The translations under genes were made by a program, and so were the position numbers. From positions 32,596-96,595 of the IMG/VR virus record IMGVR_UViG_3300020000_000011: a DNA stretch of 64,000 bases. The stretch is one strand, 5' to 3'. Position 1 is the stretch's first letter. Each line of letters begins with the position of its first letter. Shown here piece by piece: positions 5,184 through 59,203 of this stretch. The notes beneath the pieces were generated by a model that had not been told where the DNA came from, did not search any database, and saw only the letters and a list, made by a program, of their open reading frames with translations. Source of the stretch: a virus.

Positions 5184-6439
5184 CCCCAATGACCGTTCTT
5201 GAAGACTTCGACGTGGCCGACGGCGTGTACGCCGGAACCCTCGACTGGGAAGGGATGATCCGCCAACCGGCCAGTGCGCTTGTCGCTGCCGGGTTCCCGG
5301 CCAAGCCACCCTCGGCGTGGTTCGCGAACCCGAACTTCGATCGGCTGATGCCGTTGTCGATCACCAGTGACGGTCACGCGTTCGGGCACATCGCCTCGTG
5401 GCGCCAGGACCACATCGGGATGTCCGGCAGCATCAAGGCCCCGAAGTCGAAGTCCGGGTACGCGTTCTTCGCCACCGGTGTGCTGGAGACGCAGGAAGGC
5501 AAGCTGGTCAACGTCGGCCAGATCACCCTGACCGGCGGACACGCACCGTTGGAAGCCAGCGTTGCCGAAGCGGTCGCCCACTACGACAGCACCGACTCGG
5601 CGATCATGGACGTCGCCGTCGGCGAGGACAAGCACGGGATCTGGGTCGCCGGTGCGTTGCGCCCGACCGTCGACGAGAACCAGTTGCGTGCCATCCGCGC
5701 CAGCAGCGTGTCCGGCGACTGGCGTCCGATCAACGGCTCGTTGGAGATGGTCGCCGTGTGCGCGGTCAACGTGCCCGGGTTCCCGATCCCCCGCGCCCGT
5801 GTCGCCAGCGGACACCCGATGGCTCTCGTTGCCGCCGGGACCGGCGCCCTCGTCGACCTGGCCACGCACCTCGACACCGGTGCCACCGCCGACGTCGCCC
5901 AAGCGTTCGAAGACCGGTTGCGGTTCGTCGAGAACGTGTTGCTCGGCAAGGTCGAAGACGTCCGTATGGCGATGACCGCAGCAGTCGAGCAGGCCCGGGT
6001 CAACAACGAGGACCAGGCGATGATCGCCGCCGCGTTGCGTGACCGTGTCCACGGTTCGGCAGCCGCCGTTGTCGCCTCGTTGCGTGACCGCGTCCACGCC
6101 AACGACCCGCAAGAGATCTGGGACGGCGACGGGATGCCGATCGACGAGACGACCGTCGACTGCCACCAGTTGGCAATGCGCGCCAGCGTCCACCCCGAGC
6201 AGTTCCCGCTGATCGCCCGAGCCACGAAGTCGTGGACGGCAGGTGAACGCAAGAAGGCCGAGTCCCGTGGCGCGGCGATGCCCGGCGGACGGTTCCCGAT
6301 CTCCGACAAGCGCGACGTCACCAAGGCCGTCCATGCCCTCGGCCGGGCCAAGGGCGACAAGGCCAAGATCAAGTCCCACATAAAGAAGCGTGCCCGTGCG
6401 CTCGGCGCGATGGACTCGATCCCCGACAGTTGGAAGTGA
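5180..6439 (+). CDS. capsid maturation protease
   Basis: Resembles the actinophage prohead protease family. Signature region IRASSVSGDWRPINGSLEM (residues ~174-192) carries the likely nucleophilic Ser, and GHAFGHIASW (~61-70) a candidate His. The C-terminal ~60 residues (Lys/Arg-rich, ending ALGAMDSIPDSWK) form a basic tail seen in this family. The central part is helical. ATG at 5180 overlaps the upstream stop; a second ATG at 5189 is possible. Expected role: cleavage of scaffold and capsid N-termini during head maturation; the capsid gene follows at 7141. Confidence 0.8.
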   Translation: MTPMTVLEDFDVADGVYAGTLDWEGMIRQPASALVAAGFPAKPPSAWFANPNFDRLMPLSITSDGHAFGHIASWRQDHIGMSGSIKAPKSKSGYAFFATGVLETQEGKLVNVGQITLTGGHAPLEASVAEAVAHYDSTDSAIMDVAVGEDKHGIWVAGALRPTVDENQLRAIRASSVSGDWRPINGSLEMVAVCAVNVPGFPIPRARVASGHPMALVAAGTGALVDLATHLDTGATADVAQAFEDRLRFVENVLLGKVEDVRMAMTAAVEQARVNNEDQAMIAAALRDRVHGSAAAVVASLRDRVHANDPQEIWDGDGMPIDETTVDCHQLAMRASVHPEQFPLIARATKSWTAGERKKAESRGAAMPGGRFPISDKRDVTKAVHALGRAKGDKAKIKSHIKKRARALGAMDSIPDSWK

Positions 6440-6475
6440 CGAGCGATTCGCAGAATCGTTCTGCAATTCGCTCGT

Positions 6476-6604
6476 TCACCCGTTGCTGATCGACACGACC
6501 CGCTGACGTAGGCCCGGCCGGTTCGGGCACCTGTTGGATCGGTGCCCGTTCTGCCCGCAGTACGAGCAGTCCCCAGCGTGGATCCAGATGTGGTACTCGA
6601 TCAT
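6476..6604 (-). CDS. CCHC zinc-knuckle microprotein, 42 aa
   Basis: Encodes MIEYHIWIHAGDC... with CSYCGQNGHRSNRC, an exact C-x2-C-x4-H-x4-C knuckle, the module that binds single-stranded nucleic acid in retroviral and eukaryotic proteins. The ATG at 6604 is the only good start. It lies on the minus strand between protease and capsid, downstream of another minus-strand gene. The knuckle is well defined; the target is unknown. Confidence 0.6.
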   Translation of the reverse strand: MIEYHIWIHAGDCSYCGQNGHRSNRCPNRPGLRQRVVSISNG

Positions 6605-6656
6605 GTGATGTGGCCCGATGTCGGGAACCTCGTCGGGTCGAGTGTGTAGCGGCGCG

Positions 6657-6923
6657 TCAGGCGATGGGCGCATCGTCGGCCGTCGCTGACGAGAAGTCGA
6701 CGAACACCTCCGGCTTGCCGCGGCCCTCGCGGGCATCGTTGAGGATCGAAGCGAACCAGTCCAGCGCGGGCTGGTTGAGGATCGACATCTTGATCTCGCC
6801 GGACGGTGTCGCCTGGCTCCACGACTTGTTCTCGTCGCCGCGGCACACCGGGAACAACGACACCGACCCGCCCGAGATCGACTGAGTGATGTCTCTGACT
6901 ACGAACTTGGCACGTACGCCCAT
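6657..6923 (-). CDS. conserved-type actinophage protein near capsid gene, 88 aa
   Basis: MGVRAKFVVRDITQSISGGSV... with a beta-rich N-terminus and a C-terminal helix. Good Shine-Dalgarno (AGGAGA) seven bases before the ATG. It is transcribed against the capsid module. Similar short proteins occur in actinophages by my recollection, but I cannot assign a function. Confidence 0.7.
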   Translation of the reverse strand: MGVRAKFVVRDITQSISGGSVSLFPVCRGDENKSWSQATPSGEIKMSILNQPALDWFASILNDAREGRGKPEVFVDFSSATADDAPIA

Positions 6924-7004
6924 GACTGTCTCCTGTTGGTTGAAGGTGCTGTCACGGATGCGACGGGCGTTCGCCAGGCCGACCTGTCCGAAGGGTATCA
7001 CCGT

Positions 7005-7020
7005 CCGATGCTTGCATCGG
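7005..7020. promoter_or_regulatory. 16-bp perfect inverted repeat upstream of capsid gene
   Basis: CCGATGC-TT-GCATCGG. It lies between the divergent gene at 6923 and the capsid gene, about 120 bp before the capsid start. It may be an operator or small RNA hairpin. Confidence 0.45.
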
Positions 7021-7109
7021 TGTAACTCGTGGTCTACTGTTCCGCCCCAGGAGCGACCCGACAGAGTCTGGTACCTCCCGCATCCTGACCTTCAGACCTC
7101 CGTCGCTAT

Positions 7110-7131
7110 CCCGTTATACGGGAAGAGAAGG
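7110..7131 (+). promoter_or_regulatory. candidate capsid promoter -10 and ribosome-binding site
   Basis: TATACG (7115-7120) lies inside CCCGT-TAT-ACGGG (7110-7122). It is followed by AGAGAAGG (7124-7131) and nine bases later by the capsid ATG. A TTCAGA 18 bp upstream (7091-7096) could serve as -35. Confidence 0.5.
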
Positions 7132-7140
7132 TGAATCGAA

Positions 7141-9132
7141 ATGGATGCTTTCGCAGATCGTCTGGCCCGGCTCGCAGAGTTGACACCGGATGAGATCGAG
7201 GCCCTTGAAGCCGAACTCGTTGCCGCATTCGACGCGGCCGACTCGTCCGGCGACGTGGACCTGATGCAGGCCCTCGCCGACGCACTCGACACGGTTCGGG
7301 CAGCGAAGACAGCGACGCCACCCGAAGAGGCCGCACCAGCGGCTCCCGGGCAGGCCGCGCCGGTCGCCGCAGCCGCCGACGTGCTCGACGCCGACAAGGT
7401 CCTTGCAACCGACGTTCCCGAGGTACCCGAGGTCCCGACCCCGGACGTACCAGAGGCACCCGCACCCGGCGAGGTGCCTGCGGAGCCAGAGGCTCCCGAA
7501 GGCGCACCAGCGGAACCCGCGGACCCAGCAGTCCCCGCCACCGACGACGAGATCCTGAAGGCCCTCGTGAAGCTGACCGAAGCCGAACTGAAGGCTCTCG
7601 CTCTGCTCCCCGAAGAAGACCGGCAGGCGCTCGCACAGATGGCGATCGCAGCACAAACACCAATCCCCACGGAGGCGGAGCAGGTCGCTCCCGAACTGGA
7701 GCCACAGGAGGAACCACCCGTGTCAACCGCAGTGGTCACGCAATCAGACGTGCCGGACGCCAACAAGCCGGTCCCTGTGGCCGCATCGGCGATGCCGTTC
7801 ACCATCACAGCCGGTGGAGACATCCCCGGCGTGACATCAGGTCAGAAGCTGGACGGCATGGATGATGTCGTCGAAGCAATGACGAAGAAGATCAACTCGA
7901 TGCGCGGCGTCGGTGGTGATGGCGAGTACGTCATCGTTGCCTCGCTCCGTCGAGATGAGGATGCCGTCGACGAAGACAAGATGCTTCGCAAGTCGGATCC
8001 CGAGGGGAACTCGCAGAAGATCCGCAAGTTCCTTCAGGAGAACGGCTCCCGCGAGGCGATGACCGCCGCCGGTTGGTGCGCCCCGCGCACGCCGCTGTAC
8101 GACATCCCGGGCATCGGTTCGACCGATACCCCGGTGGCCGACAGCATGGCGTCGTTCGGTGTCGACCGTGGTGGCATCATCTGGACCGAGCCGCCGTCGA
8201 TCGGTGGCGTGATCGCCTCGATGGGCGCCAACGCATTCGTGCGTTGGGACCCGAACGCAGCGACCGGCTCGATCGCCCAGACCGGCGTCATCGGCACCAC
8301 GCCGACCGTCCCGGCCGACACGAAGCCGTGCATCGACATCACCTGTGGTGTCGAGCGCCACGCAGACCTGATCGCCTTGCCGATGTGCTTGTGCTTCGAT
8401 CTGCTCTCCAGCCGGACGAACCCCGAGTTCGTCAAGGCCGCAACCGATCTCGTGCAAGTCGCCCAGGCGCACTTCAAGGAGCAGTACCTGTTGGCCGCGA
8501 TGTGGAGCGCCCCCGGCGTTGTCAACCACTCCGCCGCCAACATCTACGGCACCCCCGACGTCAAGGTCGGCATCGCCCGCGACTGGCTGATCACGATCCG
8601 CGTCGTGGCCGCACAGTTCCGTTGGCGCAACCGCCTCTCGGCAACCCAGCAGGTTCGTGTGTACGCACCGGCATGGTTGCGTGACGCAGTCGCAGCCGAC
8701 CTGATGTTGCAGATGCCCGGCGACGACACGATGTCGACGTCGTACGCAGAAGTCGACGGCTACCTCGACGATGCCAACATCGACCCGGTGTGGTTCATCG
8801 ACGACGTCCCGGCAGTCGGCGACAACGTCGTGGCCGCGACAGCGAACTTCGATTCGTACCTCGGGTTCCCGCTCAACGCCGAATGGTTGGTGACCACGCC
8901 AGGCGTGTTCACCCGCCTCGACGGTGGCCAGGTCGACCTGGGTGTCGTGCGGACCAAGGACGACGTGCAGAAGAACAAGTTCTGCGAGTTCGCAGAGACG
9001 TTCGAAACGGTCGCCTACATGGGGCCGCAGGACGCGGCCAACGCATGGGCGGTTCGTGGCACGACACCGGTGCTGATCGCTGGGGCAACGGCTCTCGGCG
9101 TGAACACAGCCACCGGCGTCATCAACGAGTAA
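7141..9132 (+). CDS. scaffold-major capsid fusion protein, 663 aa
   Basis: Residues 1-~190 are acidic and helical with a Pro/Glu/Val/Ala-rich middle (PEVPEVPTPDVPEAP), as expected for a scaffold or delta domain removed by the upstream protease. Residues ~194-663 are the capsid domain (DGMDDVVEAMTKKINSMRG near the N-arm, later WLITIRVVAAQFRWRNRL and the C-terminal DVQKNKFCEFAETFETVAYM), the HK97-type capsid pattern of large actinophage capsids. A strong Shine-Dalgarno with an in-frame GTG at 7720 lies exactly at the junction, so a 470-residue capsid may also be made by internal initiation. The tube gene follows 33 bp downstream. Confidence 0.82.
   Translation: MDAFADRLARLAELTPDEIEALEAELVAAFDAADSSGDVDLMQALADALDTVRAAKTATPPEEAAPAAPGQAAPVAAAADVLDADKVLATDVPEVPEVPTPDVPEAPAPGEVPAEPEAPEGAPAEPADPAVPATDDEILKALVKLTEAELKALALLPEEDRQALAQMAIAAQTPIPTEAEQVAPELEPQEEPPVSTAVVTQSDVPDANKPVPVAASAMPFTITAGGDIPGVTSGQKLDGMDDVVEAMTKKINSMRGVGGDGEYVIVASLRRDEDAVDEDKMLRKSDPEGNSQKIRKFLQENGSREAMTAAGWCAPRTPLYDIPGIGSTDTPVADSMASFGVDRGGIIWTEPPSIGGVIASMGANAFVRWDPNAATGSIAQTGVIGTTPTVPADTKPCIDITCGVERHADLIALPMCLCFDLLSSRTNPEFVKAATDLVQVAQAHFKEQYLLAAMWSAPGVVNHSAANIYGTPDVKVGIARDWLITIRVVAAQFRWRNRLSATQQVRVYAPAWLRDAVAADLMLQMPGDDTMSTSYAEVDGYLDDANIDPVWFIDDVPAVGDNVVAATANFDSYLGFPLNAEWLVTTPGVFTRLDGGQVDLGVVRTKDDVQKNKFCEFAETFETVAYMGPQDAANAWAVRGTTPVLIAGATALGVNTATGVINE
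7706..7722 (+). promoter_or_regulatory. internal ribosome-binding site and start within capsid gene
   Basis: AGGAGGA (7706-7712), seven-base spacer, GTG (7720-7722) in the capsid reading frame (codon 194). The product would begin VSTAVVTQSDVPDANK and lack the whole scaffold-like region. Confidence 0.55.
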
Positions 9133-9165
9133 TCCCGACCACTCTGAAACCGGAGGAATTGAACG

Positions 9166-10143
9166 ATGGCAAGCAGAGATGGTGCGGCGAGCATCCAGGG
9201 CGAGATGATTCGCATTACGCCGTTGTACCTCGACGGCTCAATCGACCCAACACGCCCAATCCTCACCACCAACGGGTTCATCACGGCCTCGTTCGGTACC
9301 GAGTTCGAAGACGGCGACGAGATCACAGAGAAGGCCGCAGACGGCACGATCTGCATCCAGTACAAGGCCGACGACTCGATGAAGGGGATCACCTTCAACC
9401 TGTCGTTGTGCACGCCTGACCCGGAAGCCGCGGCGCTGTTGGCTGGTGGCAAGATCATCTGTGCTGCCGCGGACGTCATCGAGGGCGGCAACACGGTGGT
9501 CGCCAAGGGTGAAGTCATCGGCTACTCGTCCCCACCGGTCGGCGGTACCGTCGGCAACCCGGTGGCCATCGAGATCTGGTCGAAGGCGATCGTCAAGGGC
9601 AAGCCCGCACAAGGCACCCCGTACTGGCACTGGGCGTTCCCATACGTTCGTGTCCGTTACGAAGGCGACCGCGAGTTCACCAACGGTGCGCTGGCCAACG
9701 ACTACTCGGGTACCGGTGTCGGCAACGAGGCGCTCGTCGCCGATGGGCTGAACCCGGACAACGCCGGTGACGACTTCGTGACCTACAAGGACGCGTTGAC
9801 CAACCCGTTCAGCTACGTCCGCTCGACGTCGAAGCCGGACATCTCGCTCGGTCACTGGACCGGCGGCGCCGGGGACACCGGCGACTGGGAGAAGACCACG
9901 GCCAACTCGATCTCGTGCGACGCGGTCGTGCAGGTCGGTACCGCCGGGGCAGCCAATGTCGCGGGAACCTGGTCCGCCCCGGCGAGCCGACCGGCCGACG
10001 CTGCCGCAGCGAACGCGATGGGCGCCACGGCCTCACCGACCGGCAACTGGTTGACGAACACGTTCGTGCAAGGCTCGATCGCTGGTGCGTCCGGCGAGAT
10101 GCACTGGACCGGTTCGACCTGGGCGTCTGGGCGAGGCGTCTAA
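9166..10143 (+). CDS. major tail (tube) protein
   Basis: 325 residues, beta-rich, following the capsid gene with a good Shine-Dalgarno (GGAGGAATT). It begins MASRDGAASIQGEMIRITPLYLDG and has the strand-rich layout of tube proteins (RITPLYLDG...ILTTNGFITASFG...). The C-terminal ~100 residues are Gly/Ala/Thr-rich and end in WTGSTWASGRGV, probably a surface domain. A terminator hairpin follows, fitting a highly expressed virion gene. Assignment is by position, size and composition, not by a catalytic motif; a capsid decoration protein is the alternative. Confidence 0.6.
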   Translation: MASRDGAASIQGEMIRITPLYLDGSIDPTRPILTTNGFITASFGTEFEDGDEITEKAADGTICIQYKADDSMKGITFNLSLCTPDPEAAALLAGGKIICAAADVIEGGNTVVAKGEVIGYSSPPVGGTVGNPVAIEIWSKAIVKGKPAQGTPYWHWAFPYVRVRYEGDREFTNGALANDYSGTGVGNEALVADGLNPDNAGDDFVTYKDALTNPFSYVRSTSKPDISLGHWTGGAGDTGDWEKTTANSISCDAVVQVGTAGAANVAGTWSAPASRPADAAAANAMGATASPTGNWLTNTFVQGSIAGASGEMHWTGSTWASGRGV

Positions 10144-10159
10144 CCCACAACACGTGAGT

Positions 10160-10211
10160 GCGAGAGTGCGTCGGCCCCCTGGCCCTAACCCCGGGGTCGG
10201 CGCACTCTCGC
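10160..10211 (+). terminator. long hairpin terminator after capsid/tube operon
   Basis: GCGAGAGTGCG-T-CGGCCCC (10160-10178) pairs with GGGGTCGGCGCACTCTCGC (10193-10211): a 19-bp stem with two G-U pairs and a 14-base loop. There is no long U-tract, as often in actinobacterial terminators. It separates virion genes from the accessory block. Confidence 0.75.
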
Positions 10212-10234
10212 GTCTGGGGACTCGTATAGCGTGG

Positions 10235-10287
10235 TTGTGAAGTTGGGATACTGGGATATACTCGGGGCATGACCAAGACCAAGACCC
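10235..10287 (+). promoter_or_regulatory. promoter, palindromic -10 and GACCAAGACCAAGACCC repeat
   Basis: TTGTGA (10235-10240), 16 bp, TATACT (10257-10262), with the arm pair GATACT-GG-GATATACT (10247-10262). The ATG at 10269 follows after six bases. The repeat GACCAAGACCAAGACCC (10271-10287) begins within it. Confidence 0.65.
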
Positions 10288-10709
10288 ATCCACCGCCCAT
10301 CGACCTCATCCCCGAGGAACCCATGTCCACAGCCACAAAGCCCACCAAGTCCAAGGCCCGCAAGCCCCGCAAGCCAGCGAAGAAGGTCGACACCCGCACG
10401 TCGGCACTGCCCGCGCTGGAACCAGAGATGATGAACGACATCCTGCTTCAGATCCACGAGAAGGCCAAGGAAGTCGACGAAGCCCGCCTGCACCTCGACA
10501 AGATCGTTGCCGAGTCCGACGCCCTCGTGCGTGAAGCCGTCGACGACGGTGAACGGTACCGAGACATCGCCGCGTCCGCCGATCGAACGGTGCCGTGGGT
10601 GCAGATGTCGCTGCGCCGGTACGCCGGTGTGCCGACCCATCCCGCTGCGCCGATCCCGGTGTCGCGTGTTCGCCGAACCCCGGCCACCCCGGCACGGAAA
10701 GCATCCTGA
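10269..10709 (+). CDS. basic HTH-like DNA-binding protein, 146 aa
   Basis: First gene of the accessory block. Two starts are possible: ATG 10269, leaderless, or ATG 10323 with GAGGAA ahead of it, which would leave the repeat in a 54-nt leader. Residues ~20-45 are Lys/Arg/Pro-rich (KSKARKPRKPAKK). Residues ~55-90 form a coiled helix. RYRDIAASADRTVPWVQMSLRRYAG (~97-121) looks like a helix-turn-helix. It may regulate the MoxR/VWA genes downstream or compact DNA. Confidence 0.65.
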   Translation: MTKTKTHPPPIDLIPEEPMSTATKPTKSKARKPRKPAKKVDTRTSALPALEPEMMNDILLQIHEKAKEVDEARLHLDKIVAESDALVREAVDDGERYRDIAASADRTVPWVQMSLRRYAGVPTHPAAPIPVSRVRRTPATPARKAS

Positions 10710-52049: not shown

Positions 52050-52721
52050 ATGAAGCAGGGATACAGCCACATCACGATGCTCGTCGACCGGAGCGGTTCG
52101 ATGTCGCGCATCGCCACCGACGCCCAGGGCGCAGTCAACAAGTTCGTCACCGATCAACAGGCGGTGCCCGGGGAGGCGACGCTGCTGCTCGTCGAGTTCG
52201 ATGCCAGCGCGGGACTCGCCGACTCCGAGCGGTCCATTCCGTGGTACCACGTCGTCCACGACGGCGACATCAACCAGGCCCCGGCGTACCAGTTGCATGC
52301 CCGTGGGAACACGGCGCTGCTCGATGCGATCGGCCGGGCGATCACCGCCACCGGTGAGCAACTCGCCGCGCTCGACGAGGCCGACCGGCCCGAGCACGTC
52401 TACTTCGTCACCCAGACCGACGGGCAGGAGAACTCCAGCCGCGAGTTCACCGGCGACACGATCCGCGAGATGATCAAGCGCCAGACCGACGAGTTCTCGT
52501 GGGAGTTCCTGTTCTTGGGGATGGGACCGGACTCGTTCAACCAGGGTCACACCCTCGGGTTCGCCAACGTCACCAAGGGCGCGCAAGCCCCGGCCGCGTA
52601 CGCCGGAACCTACGACCTGGCGAGCGCCAACATCGCCGCCCACCGTGGTGGCGTGGTGCACGATCTGTCGGCGACCAACGCCGACGTCGACGAGGACGGG
52701 ACGGTCACCCCTGCCCCGTGA
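52050..52721 (+). CDS. stand-alone VWA-domain protein, 223 aa
   Basis: A single VWA domain of TerY/YfbK-like layout. MIDAS: MLVDRSGSMS (Asp ~13), Thr in RGNTALLDAIG (~90) and the Asp of FVTQTDGQENSS (~119). Metal-dependent protein binding is expected. TAACGT (52015-52020) and ribosome site GAAAGGA precede ATG 52050. It is on plus inside a minus-strand early region, and may be a second partner of the MoxR-type ATPase at 10812. Confidence 0.82.
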   Translation: MKQGYSHITMLVDRSGSMSRIATDAQGAVNKFVTDQQAVPGEATLLLVEFDASAGLADSERSIPWYHVVHDGDINQAPAYQLHARGNTALLDAIGRAITATGEQLAALDEADRPEHVYFVTQTDGQENSSREFTGDTIREMIKRQTDEFSWEFLFLGMGPDSFNQGHTLGFANVTKGAQAPAAYAGTYDLASANIAAHRGGVVHDLSATNADVDEDGTVTPAP

Positions 52722-55021: not shown

Positions 55022-55933
55022 TCAGACGGTCGGGCAGGTCGTGCCCAGGTCCTTCCAAACGAACCAGTCGCCCTTGCCCTTGTCGGCACCCGGGTTGTAC
55101 GGCTTGTTGAAGCCGCGCAGCGACAGAGCATGCTCACCGTTCGGTGTCGCAGGCAGTGCGTGCCACTTCGGGTCGCTCAGCGACGGGACGCCGGTGCCGG
55201 TGAACTTGCCGGTGTAGTTGAACCACACGCCTTTCACGGTCGGCTGGCACGGCGGCTCACAGTCGCCGTTCTGGGTCAGCTTGACATCGTCGATGGCGAA
55301 GTCGTTGCCCGAGTACGCCGTGCCGTTGTTCACGATCTTGACGTTCATCGGGTCGGACGCCGGGACAGCGCCGACGATCTCGATGATGTTGCTCGGGTCG
55401 TTGCTCAACACGGTTTCCGTGGCTCCGAGTGCGACACCGTTGATGTAGACGGTGATCGCCGCGCCACCATCACTGGCAGCGGAGAGCGGGAGGATGTTCA
55501 GCATGTTCGCGCTGAACGTGTAGGTCACCTTGGAGCCGGGTGTGGTGCAGACCACGCCTGGCACCGTCACGTCCAGCACCGTTTGGTCGGTGTTGGTGAA
55601 CCCGTTGACGATGAGCATGTTGTCGGTCGACCCGGCCAGGTCCACCCAGAACGGGTGGAAGTCGTGCGGGTTGGTGCCGATGACGTAGGTGCCGGGATCC
55701 CACATGGATCCGTCGCCACCGGGGTAGCTCGCCTGGCTGAACAGCGTCGTCTGGCTGAACGCAGTCGTCGCTCCGGCGCTCGGGAGCGTGGGGTTGACGC
55801 CCAGCCCGTCGAAGCTGATGTTGAGCGGCTGGTCGCCGTCTGCGGCTGCTGCCGGGGAGACGAGCGCCCCGACTGATGTGATGGCGATGGCTGCTGCAAG
55901 CAGGACGCGCCCCTTCTTCATTGATGCTTTCAA
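55022..55933 (-). CDS. secreted beta-sandwich protein with signal peptide, ~300 aa
   Basis: N-terminus MKKGRVLLAAAIAITSVGALVSPAAAADG is a textbook Sec signal peptide with an AAA-type cleavage site. The mature part is Gly/Thr/Asn/Val-rich with strands (VLDVTVPGVVCTTPG; AITVYINGVALGATETVL; NDFAIDDVKLTQNGDC), like galactose-binding/DUF642-type jelly rolls; CEPPCQ hints at disulphides. Start is TTG 55933 (AGGGGA six bases upstream) or ATG 55921. Secreted proteins with monogenic insulation in a phage suggest host-surface alteration or a lysogenic-conversion factor. Confidence 0.7.
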   Translation of the reverse strand: MKASMKKGRVLLAAAIAITSVGALVSPAAAADGDQPLNISFDGLGVNPTLPSAGATTAFSQTTLFSQASYPGGDGSMWDPGTYVIGTNPHDFHPFWVDLAGSTDNMLIVNGFTNTDQTVLDVTVPGVVCTTPGSKVTYTFSANMLNILPLSAASDGGAAITVYINGVALGATETVLSNDPSNIIEIVGAVPASDPMNVKIVNNGTAYSGNDFAIDDVKLTQNGDCEPPCQPTVKGVWFNYTGKFTGTGVPSLSDPKWHALPATPNGEHALSLRGFNKPYNPGADKGKGDWFVWKDLGTTCPTV

Positions 55934-56241
55934 AGCAGTCCCCTTCAGGGTTCTACGTGAGCGGAATCTCCGCCCGCCGGATCGTGAACCGTAGTCCACG
56001 ACGATGGTGTGAACCTTAGCGGTGCATCAAGGGATCCGCAAGGAATCTGCAAGATATTTGATACCCGGGTATCAATCGAACATGCCACGTCACGCCATAT
56101 GCCGATACCACGGTATGCCCTACCAGGCACGGAACCGCGAAATCCGTGGTTGCGGAACCCGCCCCGAGCGGTTACGGTTACCGCCAGCTACAACACCGTA
56201 GCGACGAACGACTAGCTCGACTAGTCAAGAGAGAGGTCAGC
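55934..56241. promoter_or_regulatory. 308-bp divergent control region with GATACC-nn-GGTATC palindromes
   Basis: No gene seen. Contains the 18-bp perfect palindrome TTGATACCCGGGTATCAA (56058-56075) and a near copy GATACC-AC-GGTATG (56104-56117), both of the arm sequence that overlaps -10 boxes elsewhere. GGTTACGGTTACCGCC (56169-56184) resembles the 1450 and 52000 promoters. GAGAGAGG before ATG 56242 is the ribosome site. Confidence 0.6.
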
Positions 56242-58254
56242 ATGGCTACGCCCATGAAGATGACGGCTGAGGCCGTCGCATCCCGCCTGGAAGAGGACTA
56301 CTCATCCGGCGCCCCCTACCAGTGGGCCATCGAATGGCTCCGCAACGTATGGGCCAAACCCACGGCAACCGAGGCGTTCATCCGCATCGTCGAGATCCCC
56401 GGCAACGGCACCCGCCTCGTCATGATCGACAACGGCGCACCGATCACCGAGGATCTGCTGTACGAGTACATCGCCACCCTCGGCGCCGGTGACGGCTCGA
56501 TGTGGCGGCTCGACAACATGGAGGGCAACCGGCACGCCGGACTCCGCGCCTCGATCCTGCCGTGGGCCGACATGACCGTCGCCGTCTGGGACGACGACAT
56601 CATGCCGAACGGGTTGGAGATCGAACTGTTCTACGACCCGGCCACCACCACCTACGAGTCCAGCGACGTCGTCGCCCTCGATCCCGACATGCTCGCCGCG
56701 CTCCGCAAGGAAGTCACGCCCTACGCAGACTCGCCCGACGAGATCCCGGGACTGTCGCCCACCCACAGCGGTGCGTTCACCCGTGGCGTCGCCTTCATCC
56801 TGTTCGACCGCGACGACACCAAGGACGGCCCGTTCTACGACGAGCGCAAGGGCGAGACGTCCGGCGGTGTCCAAGACGCACTCCGCGACCGTGTCTACGC
56901 GGCGGTCAACCAGGCGACCGGCGACCCGCTGCGGATCGTGGCCGAGGTGACAATGCCCCTCGCCGACACGAAGGACAAGAAAGGCGGCGGCGCAGTCGTC
57001 AACATCAACGGTGCCCCGACCCGTCTGGACAGCCGCGAGATCAAGGGAATCCAACCCTGGTTGGATCGCCCGTCGGTCACCGGCGACCCGCTCGTCGTCG
57101 ACGACTACGGCACCAGGATCCATTGGTGGCTGCTCGACGAACTCGGCGACAACCGGCGTCTGATGAACGCCGGTCGCGGCATCGCAGCGATCCGCTACAA
57201 GAACGAACTCATGCCCCTGTCCGACAGGGTGCAGAACGACATGCGTCGCTTCGGGATCGTTCTCAGTGCCGTCTACGACCGGCTGGCGATCGTCATCGAA
57301 CCGCCGACGTCCGGTCCCGGCTGGCACGTGAAGCAGAACCCGGCCCGTTCACGGGTCGAGTCGTTCAACGGCTTGCCGCTCCCGCTCGACGAGTGGGCCG
57401 AGGCGTTCGTCACCGACATGCCCCTGGCGATCCGTGACGCCAACGCTGCTGCCCGTTCCCTCGGGATCAGCACGTCGAACAGCCACCTTGCCCGAGTGAT
57501 GGAGAAGTTCACCGACCGGTTCAAGGTCCTCGCTGCTTCACGGCGTCGCAAGCCTGGCACCGGTGTCATCGGCGAAGTCGCCAACGACACACCGGCGCCC
57601 AGCGCGGATCCCGGCGACGAGGCTCGTCTGCCTCGCGAGGGCGGCGTCGGCTCGGTCACGGTCGTCAAGCCCTCCGAGAACAAGGGCGGTCGGACCAACG
57701 GTGTGCTCACCGTCAACCGGCCACACACCGGCACGGGTGCCGAGGAATCGGTGTTCCGCGCTGGGGCGAAGCGTCGTGCTCGTCGCGCCCGTGACGTCCC
57801 GGCCGAGGTCGCCGTCGAAGAGAAGGCGATGGGCATGCTGCCGGAGTACCTGTCGAACGCCGAATGGCACGCCCGCTTCGACGGTGCCGCCGACGTCGAC
57901 CCCTACGGCTACTTCTGGGATCGTGTCTCCAAGGTGTTGACACTCAACGTCGACCACCCAGTCCACGAACTGGCCATCGACTACTACACCGGCGCATGGC
58001 TCGACGCCCGCCCGAACATCCGTCGCAGGGCGACGACCGAAGAGATCCGCGACGCAGTCTTGGAGGCGTACTTCCTTGACACGTTGACGGGGATCTCGGC
58101 CGCTGTCCGGCTGCACGGTAGTGAGGGACGGGCACACCTGGAGATGACTCCCGAGGTGATGACCAAGTCGCACTACAACACCGCCGGGGTCGACGCGCTG
58201 ATCGAACCGTGGCTCGGTGCGCTCGGCTCGACACGGCGGGCCGTCGTGGCGTGA
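56242..58254 (+). CDS. GHKL (Hsp90/MORC-type) ATPase, 670 aa
   Basis: ATP-binding fold motifs: N-box AIEWLRN (Glu31, Asn35), G1 box MIDNG (Asp63-Gly65), and a glycine lid NRHAGLRAS (~96-104). This order fits Hsp90/MutL/MORC GHKL domains. The middle has beta segments, and ~425-560 is a linker with KRRARRARD. The C-terminal domain begins LPEYLSNAEWHARFDG. ATG 56242 is used with GAGAGGT upstream; the longer reading starts inside the promoter. It ends in GTGA overlap with a DNA methyltransferase, implying a joint function, possibly DNA protection or structural remodelling. Confidence 0.75.
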   Translation: MATPMKMTAEAVASRLEEDYSSGAPYQWAIEWLRNVWAKPTATEAFIRIVEIPGNGTRLVMIDNGAPITEDLLYEYIATLGAGDGSMWRLDNMEGNRHAGLRASILPWADMTVAVWDDDIMPNGLEIELFYDPATTTYESSDVVALDPDMLAALRKEVTPYADSPDEIPGLSPTHSGAFTRGVAFILFDRDDTKDGPFYDERKGETSGGVQDALRDRVYAAVNQATGDPLRIVAEVTMPLADTKDKKGGGAVVNINGAPTRLDSREIKGIQPWLDRPSVTGDPLVVDDYGTRIHWWLLDELGDNRRLMNAGRGIAAIRYKNELMPLSDRVQNDMRRFGIVLSAVYDRLAIVIEPPTSGPGWHVKQNPARSRVESFNGLPLPLDEWAEAFVTDMPLAIRDANAAARSLGISTSNSHLARVMEKFTDRFKVLAASRRRKPGTGVIGEVANDTPAPSADPGDEARLPREGGVGSVTVVKPSENKGGRTNGVLTVNRPHTGTGAEESVFRAGAKRRARRARDVPAEVAVEEKAMGMLPEYLSNAEWHARFDGAADVDPYGYFWDRVSKVLTLNVDHPVHELAIDYYTGAWLDARPNIRRRATTEEIRDAVLEAYFLDTLTGISAAVRLHGSEGRAHLEMTPEVMTKSHYNTAGVDALIEPWLGALGSTRRAVVA

Positions 58255-58916
58255 CCGGCGAACAACTGTCGTTGGAGGGGGTCGACCATCGGTCGGCCCC
58301 CTTGCCGCGTCTGGTGTACGCCATCGACCCGACGCACTCGACGAACTCGCAGCGGATCTCCGATCTCGCGAGGCTCGGCTACCTACCAACACCGGTCCTC
58401 GACTGCACGTTCGGACTCGGCGGATTCTGGAGCGGTTGGCAACCCGAGTTCCTCGTCGCCTGCGACCTGGACCCGGACAAGGCCCGCGACATCCGCTGCG
58501 ACGTCCACGCCTTGCCGTTCGCCGACCGGTCGTTCCCGGCCGTCGTGTTCGACCCGCCGTACAAGGTTCGCCACGGCGGCAACACCGAAGCCTCGATGAC
58601 CCAGGGCGGGATCGACATCTCCGACCGCTACGGCTCCGAGGGCGACCTGCGTTCGCAGACGATCGGCAAGCCGTGGCTCTCGGGCCTGCCGGAGGTGCTG
58701 CGTGTCGCCGACCGGTTCGTGATCGTCAAGTGCCAGGACCAGGTCGCGGCGTGGCAGTCGTACGACGTGGCCGCGCTGGCCGGGACGCTCGGGTGGCGGC
58801 TGAAGGATCTGCTGCTGCTCGGCAACACGATCTTCAACCCGAACGTCCAGCGCCACGCCCGCCGGAACTACTCGACGTTCGTGGTGTTGCAACGTGTTCG
58901 GAAACGTGGCCGCTGA
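58251..58916 (+). CDS. DNA methyltransferase (DPPY type)
   Basis: 221 residues. SAM site LDCTFGLGGFWSG (~45-57) and catalytic motif VFDPPYKV (~100-107), the DPPY of amino-methylating (N6-adenine or N4-cytosine) enzymes; later FVIVKCQDQ is a typical strand. No restriction partner is visible, so it may be an orphan that protects phage DNA. GTG start coupled to the GHKL ATPase. Target sequence unknown. Confidence 0.82.
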   Translation: MTGEQLSLEGVDHRSAPLPRLVYAIDPTHSTNSQRISDLARLGYLPTPVLDCTFGLGGFWSGWQPEFLVACDLDPDKARDIRCDVHALPFADRSFPAVVFDPPYKVRHGGNTEASMTQGGIDISDRYGSEGDLRSQTIGKPWLSGLPEVLRVADRFVIVKCQDQVAAWQSYDVAALAGTLGWRLKDLLLLGNTIFNPNVQRHARRNYSTFVVLQRVRKRGR

Positions 58917-58925
58917 CCAGGCACG

Positions 58926-58981
58926 TTGTCATTCCGCAGATACCGTGGTATACTGTTGTCATGACCGAGACACCAGACATC
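58926..58981 (+). promoter_or_regulatory. strong promoter with operator-like palindrome over -10
   Basis: TTGTCA (58926-58931), 17 bp, TATACT (58949-58954). GATACC-GT-GGTATACT (58939-58954) forms arms over the -10. ATG 58961 follows after six bases and the first codons read GACCGAGACACCAGACATC. Confidence 0.75.
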
Positions 58982-59203
58982 ACATCCACCCCCCTCGACT
59001 GGGTCGGCAAGACCCTCACCTGGGACGGCAACAAGCGGTTCCACATCGAAGCGGTCGAACCGTGCAACGAGTGGTACTACCGAATGACCGGCGCCAACCC
59101 GAAGATCCCCCGCTGGAACGTTCGCTGCCGCCCGATCCGCCCCAACCGCCCACTCGGCGCCATCCGCGAGTTCGCCCTCACCGCCGACGCGCTGGTCGCC
59201 TGA
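58961..59203 (+). CDS. hypothetical protein, 80 aa, leaderless
   Basis: MTETPDITSTPLDWVGKTLTW... a small mixed protein with EPCNEWYYRMTG. First gene of a rightward accessory operon; the N-terminal MTETPDIT is dictated by the repeat element. TGATG overlap with the next gene. Function unknown. Confidence 0.7.
   Translation: MTETPDITSTPLDWVGKTLTWDGNKRFHIEAVEPCNEWYYRMTGANPKIPRWNVRCRPIRPNRPLGAIREFALTADALVA

Follow-up and report, generated by a model that had tools for sequence, protein, structure and literature searches.

A divergent GHKL ATPase gene overlapping a DPPY methyltransferase gene in a tailed phage, and its tentative reading as a counter-defence unit

The sequence under study belongs to a 96.6-kb virus record of IMG/VR, the right 64 kb of which make up the window analysed here; and matches in a profile scan to the PHROGs families of the portal, capsid, terminase, tape measure, and replication initiator identify the source as a tailed phage, whose host was probably an actinobacterium. 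The window carries the two-gene layout that the original prediction had described—a 670-residue ATPase gene (P0001) ending in a GTGA overlap with an amino-methyltransferase gene (P0002)—and, upstream of the former, both of the operator-like palindromes proposed there, to which we add a third exact copy farther downstream. The third codon positions are strongly coding, with 86% and 90% GC for the ATPase and methyltransferase genes, respectively. The features, by their positions in the window, are:

56061–56072 (no strand): operator-like palindrome 1, ATACCCGGGTAT, an exact copy upstream of the ATPase gene
56105–56116 (no strand): operator-like palindrome 2, ATACCACGGTAT, an exact copy upstream of the ATPase gene
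56230–56236 (+): ribosome-binding site of P0001, AGAGAGG, graded good from the sequence
56242–58254 (+): P0001, the ATPase ORF, 670 aa, ATG start at 56242 and TGA stop at 58252–58254; by ORF and homology, a GHKL plus S5-like part (residues ~1–440), a low-complexity linker (~440–530), and a variable C-terminal domain (~530–670)
56332–56346 (+): putative N-box E31-W-L-R-N35 (E31xxxN35), our own reading outside the automatic alignment, at almost the same distance from the start as the REFFKN of the relatives
56428–56442 (+): DxG motif D63-N-G65-A-P67, aligning with TDTGAGM and related motifs
56524–56553 (+): G2 box GNRHAGLRAS, residues 95–104 (G95-x4-G100), aligning with GNFGIGAKVS / GNQGMGLKIS
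58251–58254 (+): GTGA stop–start overlap of P0001 and P0002, from the ORF positions
58251–58916 (+): P0002, the methyltransferase ORF, 221 aa, GTG start at 58251
58251–58313 (+): N-terminal extension of P0002 with QLSLE, weakly sliding-clamp-motif-like and suggestive only
58551–58562 (+): catalytic motif IV DPPY followed by a K invariant in 15 sequences, from the alignment
58926–58954 (+): promoter-like TTGTCA-17-TATACT of the next gene (58961–59203), chance expectation 0.4 in a 3.4-kb region
58940–58951 (no strand): operator-like palindrome 3, ATACCGTGGTAT, in the spacer of that promoter and overlapping its -10

The GTG start of P0002 is backed by an N-terminal extension similar to that of a viral relative (L029), and the overlap that this start creates suggests co-transcription and perhaps translational coupling. 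The original prediction had gone further, reading in the overlap a coupled stoichiometry and one complex, which step we do not follow because 4-nt overlaps are commonplace in this phage: with a simple gene caller applied to this one contig, 34 of the 114 same-strand neighbour pairs overlapped by exactly 4 nt and 53 by any length. Two further genes of the window deserve mention in their own right. The divergent neighbour of the ATPase gene (55022–55921, minus strand) has a 299-aa product, which carries an apparent signal peptide at its N-terminus and would seem to be an exported phage-encoded protein outside the known families; and at 52050–52721 (plus strand), near the replication initiator, lies a gene for a Von Willebrand factor A-like protein (phrog_7371, function unassigned).

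The 96.6-kb contig has just three exact copies of the perfect palindrome ATACCnnGGTAT: two precede the ATPase gene and one lies at the promoter of the gene that follows P0002, so that these exclusive copies flank the ATPase–methyltransferase transcription unit. A Markov simulation of 64 kb gave a chance expectation of none for the 12-mer and of 0.07 for its 10-bp core. From this recurrence, which is observed directly, we infer that a regulator of the unit's own, either a repressor or an activator, probably acts at those sites. HTH-like proteins are encoded by the phage at 2325–2564 and 50087–50311 of the window. The palindromes are also possible candidates for the sites methylated by P0002, and ATACCNNGGTAT is an example of a possible candidate motif for modification by that enzyme.

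The assignment of P0001 as a GHKL ATPase could not be made directly. Searches with the protein drew a blank among the Pfam, PHROGs, NCBIfam, and PADLOC profiles and the PDB sequences; tblastn against phages and plasmids found nothing up to E = 10, nor did peptide-pattern scans over the viral and genome contigs; and the single-sequence AlphaFold model had a pLDDT of 36, too low for a reading of the fold. Certain weak Acidimicrobiia matches by phmmer (e.g., the 640-aa frames of L092 and L093) were dropped, these ORFs being unlike GHKL proteins. The entry point was a search of Acidimicrobiia genomes with Pfam HATPase_c_3, which led to proteins of L139 and L142 that are collinear with P0001 and match it at 5e-6 by blastp and 88% by hhalign; L142 then led to L150, to a Caballeronia plasmid protein, and to further plasmid proteins. 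A seven-member HMM built without P0001 ranked P0001 first among 6,129 sequences (3.8e-6), with none of 500 shuffles matching. The last viral scan added L156–L160, among which the proteins of phages L160 and L159 match P0001 by blastp at 6e-11 and 1.9e-6, respectively. With an 11-member HMM of plasmid, phage, and bacterial GHKL proteins, from whose building P0001 was likewise left out, P0001 was the top match among ~6,130 sequences (E 1.2e-10), while hhalign against the same family gave 98% and 1.8e-13 over 369 columns, covering residues 12–430. Segment-wise comparison with the relatives gave z values of 5–7 for the N-terminal part and of 13–16 for the middle. A six-member profile that included P0001 also matched gyrase-B-sized frames, not individually checked, which result is to be expected because the profile is a GHKL one. 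On these grounds of homology the membership of P0001 in the GHKL superfamily, as originally predicted, is confirmed. In two of the added contigs, L156 and L157 (338 kb and 90 kb), the GHKL gene is surrounded by curlin-like, UDP-diacylglucosamine hydrolase-like, and glycosyltransferase-like genes; both contigs are probably bacterial despite their viral listing.

As judged from their sequences, the members of this uncatalogued family consist of a GHKL domain, a middle region that is S5-like, and a C-terminus that varies, and are found on phages, plasmids, and bacterial chromosomes; P0001 is by homology a divergent member of a mobile-element family of GHKL ATPases with an S5-like transducer. The similarity of its own C-terminal domain (~530–670) to those of the bacterial and plasmid relatives is not significant. 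The DxGxG motif is altered to DNGAP in P0001, the second Gly having become Pro, and some relatives change the Asp; despite that alteration, ATPase activity is predicted as likely.

That P0002 is an amino-methyltransferase of the DPPY type was likewise upheld. The protein matches PHROG 24333, a DNA methyltransferase family, at E 3.8e-16; the stretch VVFDPPYK is invariant in 15 aligned sequences; and the AlphaFold model (pLDDT 74) has the class I methyltransferase fold, so that P0002 combines the Rossmann methyltransferase fold and the [DNS]PP[YF] motif of the class I amino-methyltransferases. Its relatives, 31–43% identical, occur in dozens of viral contigs. The substrate is likely DNA, which label derives from the PHROG naming, the model resembling RNA and small-molecule methyltransferases likewise: its Foldseek matches comprise RNA, small-molecule, and DNA enzymes, with METTL5, Bud23, and Trm11 among the top ones. 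The 221 residues of P0002 include no separate target-recognition domain. Sliding-clamp-binding motifs have the form QL[SD]LF, to which the QLSLE of P0002 is a poor match; the N-terminal extensions of its relatives in L029, L054, L059, and L065 carry QLSL, QSSLF, or QSLF, which are beta-clamp-binding-like.

The recurrence of the pair in other genomes was examined from both sides. Searches with P0002 or its profile led to loci on ~66 viral contigs and four bacterial ones, at none of which did phmmer detect a P0001 relative; and the better family HMM found none there except for a MORC-type GHKL protein in L089, where the P0002 match is weak and the GHKL gene belongs to a separate operon with a C5-methyltransferase. 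That operon, at 6414–10562 of the viral contig L089, has in tight tandem a C5-cytosine methyltransferase gene, a 655-aa MORC-type GHKL ATPase gene, and a gene for a 382-aa protein, and looks like a MORC-type restriction–modification operon. Among the loci examined, then, the combination of a P0001-type ATPase with a P0002-type methyltransferase was seen only in this virus. The original prediction had named as grounds for its rejection both a lack of co-occurrence and the lack of the ATPase fold: the genes do not co-occur elsewhere, but the ATPase belongs to the GHKL superfamily by homology.

A broader association is nevertheless suggested by the neighbourhoods of the ATPase relatives, a small sample gathered opportunistically. 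A DNA methyltransferase adjoins the ATPase in three of the ~9 lineages and is of a different kind in each: a C5 enzyme (L142/L150), a phrog_67 amino-methyltransferase (L159), and P0002 itself, which pattern is suggestive only; most relatives (e.g., L160, L158, L152, and L182) have no methyltransferase within ~4 kb. In the two Acidimicrobiia genomes of L142 and L150 the ATPase is accompanied by a C5-cytosine methyltransferase and by what we read, from DLDLV...ALEAKA, as a PD-(D/E)xK-like protein; the corresponding uncatalogued genes (L142, 9017–9862; L150, 11935–12882) encode proteins that are 45% identical, and the gene order differs between the genomes. No homologue of that protein was found in the phage, and no nuclease or helicase profile matched among the scanned neighbours of the phage pair. 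Elsewhere, in plasmids of Dinoroseobacter and Agrobacterium (L153, 7830–14330; L155, 7986–13048), the GHKL ATPase gene lies close upstream of a Gabija-like pair of OLD-like AAA and UvrD helicase genes; the relative in L182 lies near what we read as an Mrr-like gene; and among the phages, that of L160 is near an Erf-like annealing gene and that of L159 near a RusA-like gene and the terminase.

The interpretation that we tentatively favour, while rating it at somewhat below an even chance, is that the pair constitutes a counter-defence unit for DNA modification or remodelling. In such a scheme the two genes would act as an operon of the tailed phage under their own regulator at the ATACCnnGGTAT sites; P0001 would dimerise upon ATP binding and then clamp or reshape DNA; P0002 would methylate the DNA of the phage, perhaps close to the replication fork; and the two together would modify or occlude that DNA and thereby defeat host restriction or some other defence that senses DNA. 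We favour this reading because the GHKL homology is robust, because the ATPase relatives adjoin three kinds of DNA methyltransferase, because L142 and L150 also hold a conserved PD-(D/E)xK-like gene as do operons described earlier (PMC2292703), because rIIA proteins with a GHKL domain and a variable C-terminus are treated as phage counter-defence (PMC7824862), and because the exclusive palindromes flank the unit. The same reading is weakened by the lack of any other locus pairing the two types of protein, by the solitary state of the P0002 relatives and of most ATPase relatives, by the ordinariness of the 4-nt overlap and the altered DxGxG, by the resemblance of the P0002 model to RNA and small-molecule enzymes as much as to DNA ones, and by the possible incompleteness of the phage contig. 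The predicted action against host defence agrees with the restriction–modification-like or defence-rich settings of the relatives (L142/L150, L153/L155, and L182) and with the amino-methyltransferase beside the ATPase of L159. The idea of one complex is not supported by the overlap, and P0001 and P0002 as one machine are unproven. More doubtful is the specific form of the proposal, in which an ATP-driven GHKL/S5 clamp would deliver a methyltransferase lacking a target-recognition domain to phage DNA as counter-defence, the clamp family being common to phages, plasmids, and bacterial restriction–modification clusters and swapping its methyltransferase partners.

The main rival, to which we accord a smaller though still considerable probability, is that one operon holds two independent functions: a T4 rIIA-like ATPase directed against an exclusion system and an orphan methyltransferase that came to lie next to it by chance. 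Dozens of phages with a P0002 relative and no ATPase, the ATPase relatives of L160, L158, L152, and L182, the frequency of 4-nt overlaps, and the shared build of rIIA proteins all speak for this alternative, and P0001 may indeed work like rIIA. Against it, three separate ATPase lineages adjoin a DNA methyltransferase, and a tree splits rIIA and a MORC-type protein from the P0001 family with 96/96 support, albeit with long branches, that of P0001 blurring its exact place within the family. We accordingly rejected filing P0001 under rIIA, since neither it nor its relatives match the PHROG rIIA families, whereas the rIIA of phage Francesca matches phrog_612 at 5e-92; nor does the contig hold a rIIB-like gene, the best tblastn match with the Francesca rIIB having an E of 2.2. 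The L159 protein has a weak tblastn match to Rhodococcus phage rIIA-like proteins. The 'DNA methyltransferase' near the Francesca rIIA is unrelated to P0002.

An unlikely alternative is the unrecognised defence module that had also been proposed, a restriction–modification-like defence or exclusion system whose nuclease would be missing, encoded far away, or provided by the host. The clusters of L142/L150, with their methyltransferase and PD-(D/E)xK-like protein, and the three-gene set of the viral L089 lend it some weight; but with no nuclease beside the pair a complete module is improbable, and only P0002 stands out in the phage as a methyltransferase by motif, the other DPPY being located in the terminase. 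Least probable, by a little, is a reading unconnected with host defence, in which P0002 modifies tRNA or rRNA while P0001 assists phage recombination, replication, or packaging. The RNA enzymes among the top Foldseek matches and the Erf-like, RusA-like, and terminase neighbours of L160 and L159 would point to it, but against it stand the PHROG families named DNA methyltransferase, the medium confidence of the model, and a fold common to all class I methyltransferases.

P0001 belongs to an uncatalogued phage and plasmid GHKL family tied to restriction–modification-like clusters, which family is easily overlooked in surveys of defence and counter-defence because P0001 escaped every profile tried from Pfam, PHROGs, NCBIfam, and PADLOC. 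The pair is small and testable, and bears on the way in which MORC-like ATPases and DNA methyltransferases cooperate, which was raised as a question in 2008 for the prokaryotic MORC and paraMORC proteins (PMC2292703).

Compared with known systems, P0002 shares the fold and the DPPYK motif of the phage orphan amino-methyltransferases of PHROG 24333, whereas those are solo genes with no coupled ATPase and mostly lack the N-terminal QLSL extension. The plasmid and chromosomal GHKL proteins annotated as ATP-binding or hypothetical (L151–L155 and L182) are of the same GHKL plus S5-like family as P0001 by HMM or blastp, but have no DNA methyltransferase within ~4 kb, and several adjoin Gabija-like or other defence genes. 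By homology, the ATPase modules of topoisomerases and MutL share the module build of the family. Like the T4 rIIA-type proteins (PHROG 612 and related; PMC7824862), P0001 is a phage protein of similar size with an N-terminal GHKL domain, a variable C-terminus, and a partner gene immediately downstream; that partner, however, is a methyltransferase and not rIIB, P0001 has no rIIA family match, and the Francesca rIIA matches the family HMM by its GHKL domain only. From the MORC and paraMORC GHKL ATPases of restriction–modification operons (Iyer, Abhiman and Aravind 2008; PMC2292703) the phage pair differs in having no adjoining helicase or nuclease and a small DPPY enzyme as its methyltransferase, and P0001 is too divergent in sequence for placement in paraMORC1–5 by the methods applied, the tree parting it from a MORC-type protein; in common with them, P0001 has the GHKL plus S5-like module, the variable C-terminal extension, and the link to DNA methyltransferase genes, and its relatives in L142 and L150 have, as in those operons, a PD-(D/E)xK-like gene alongside.
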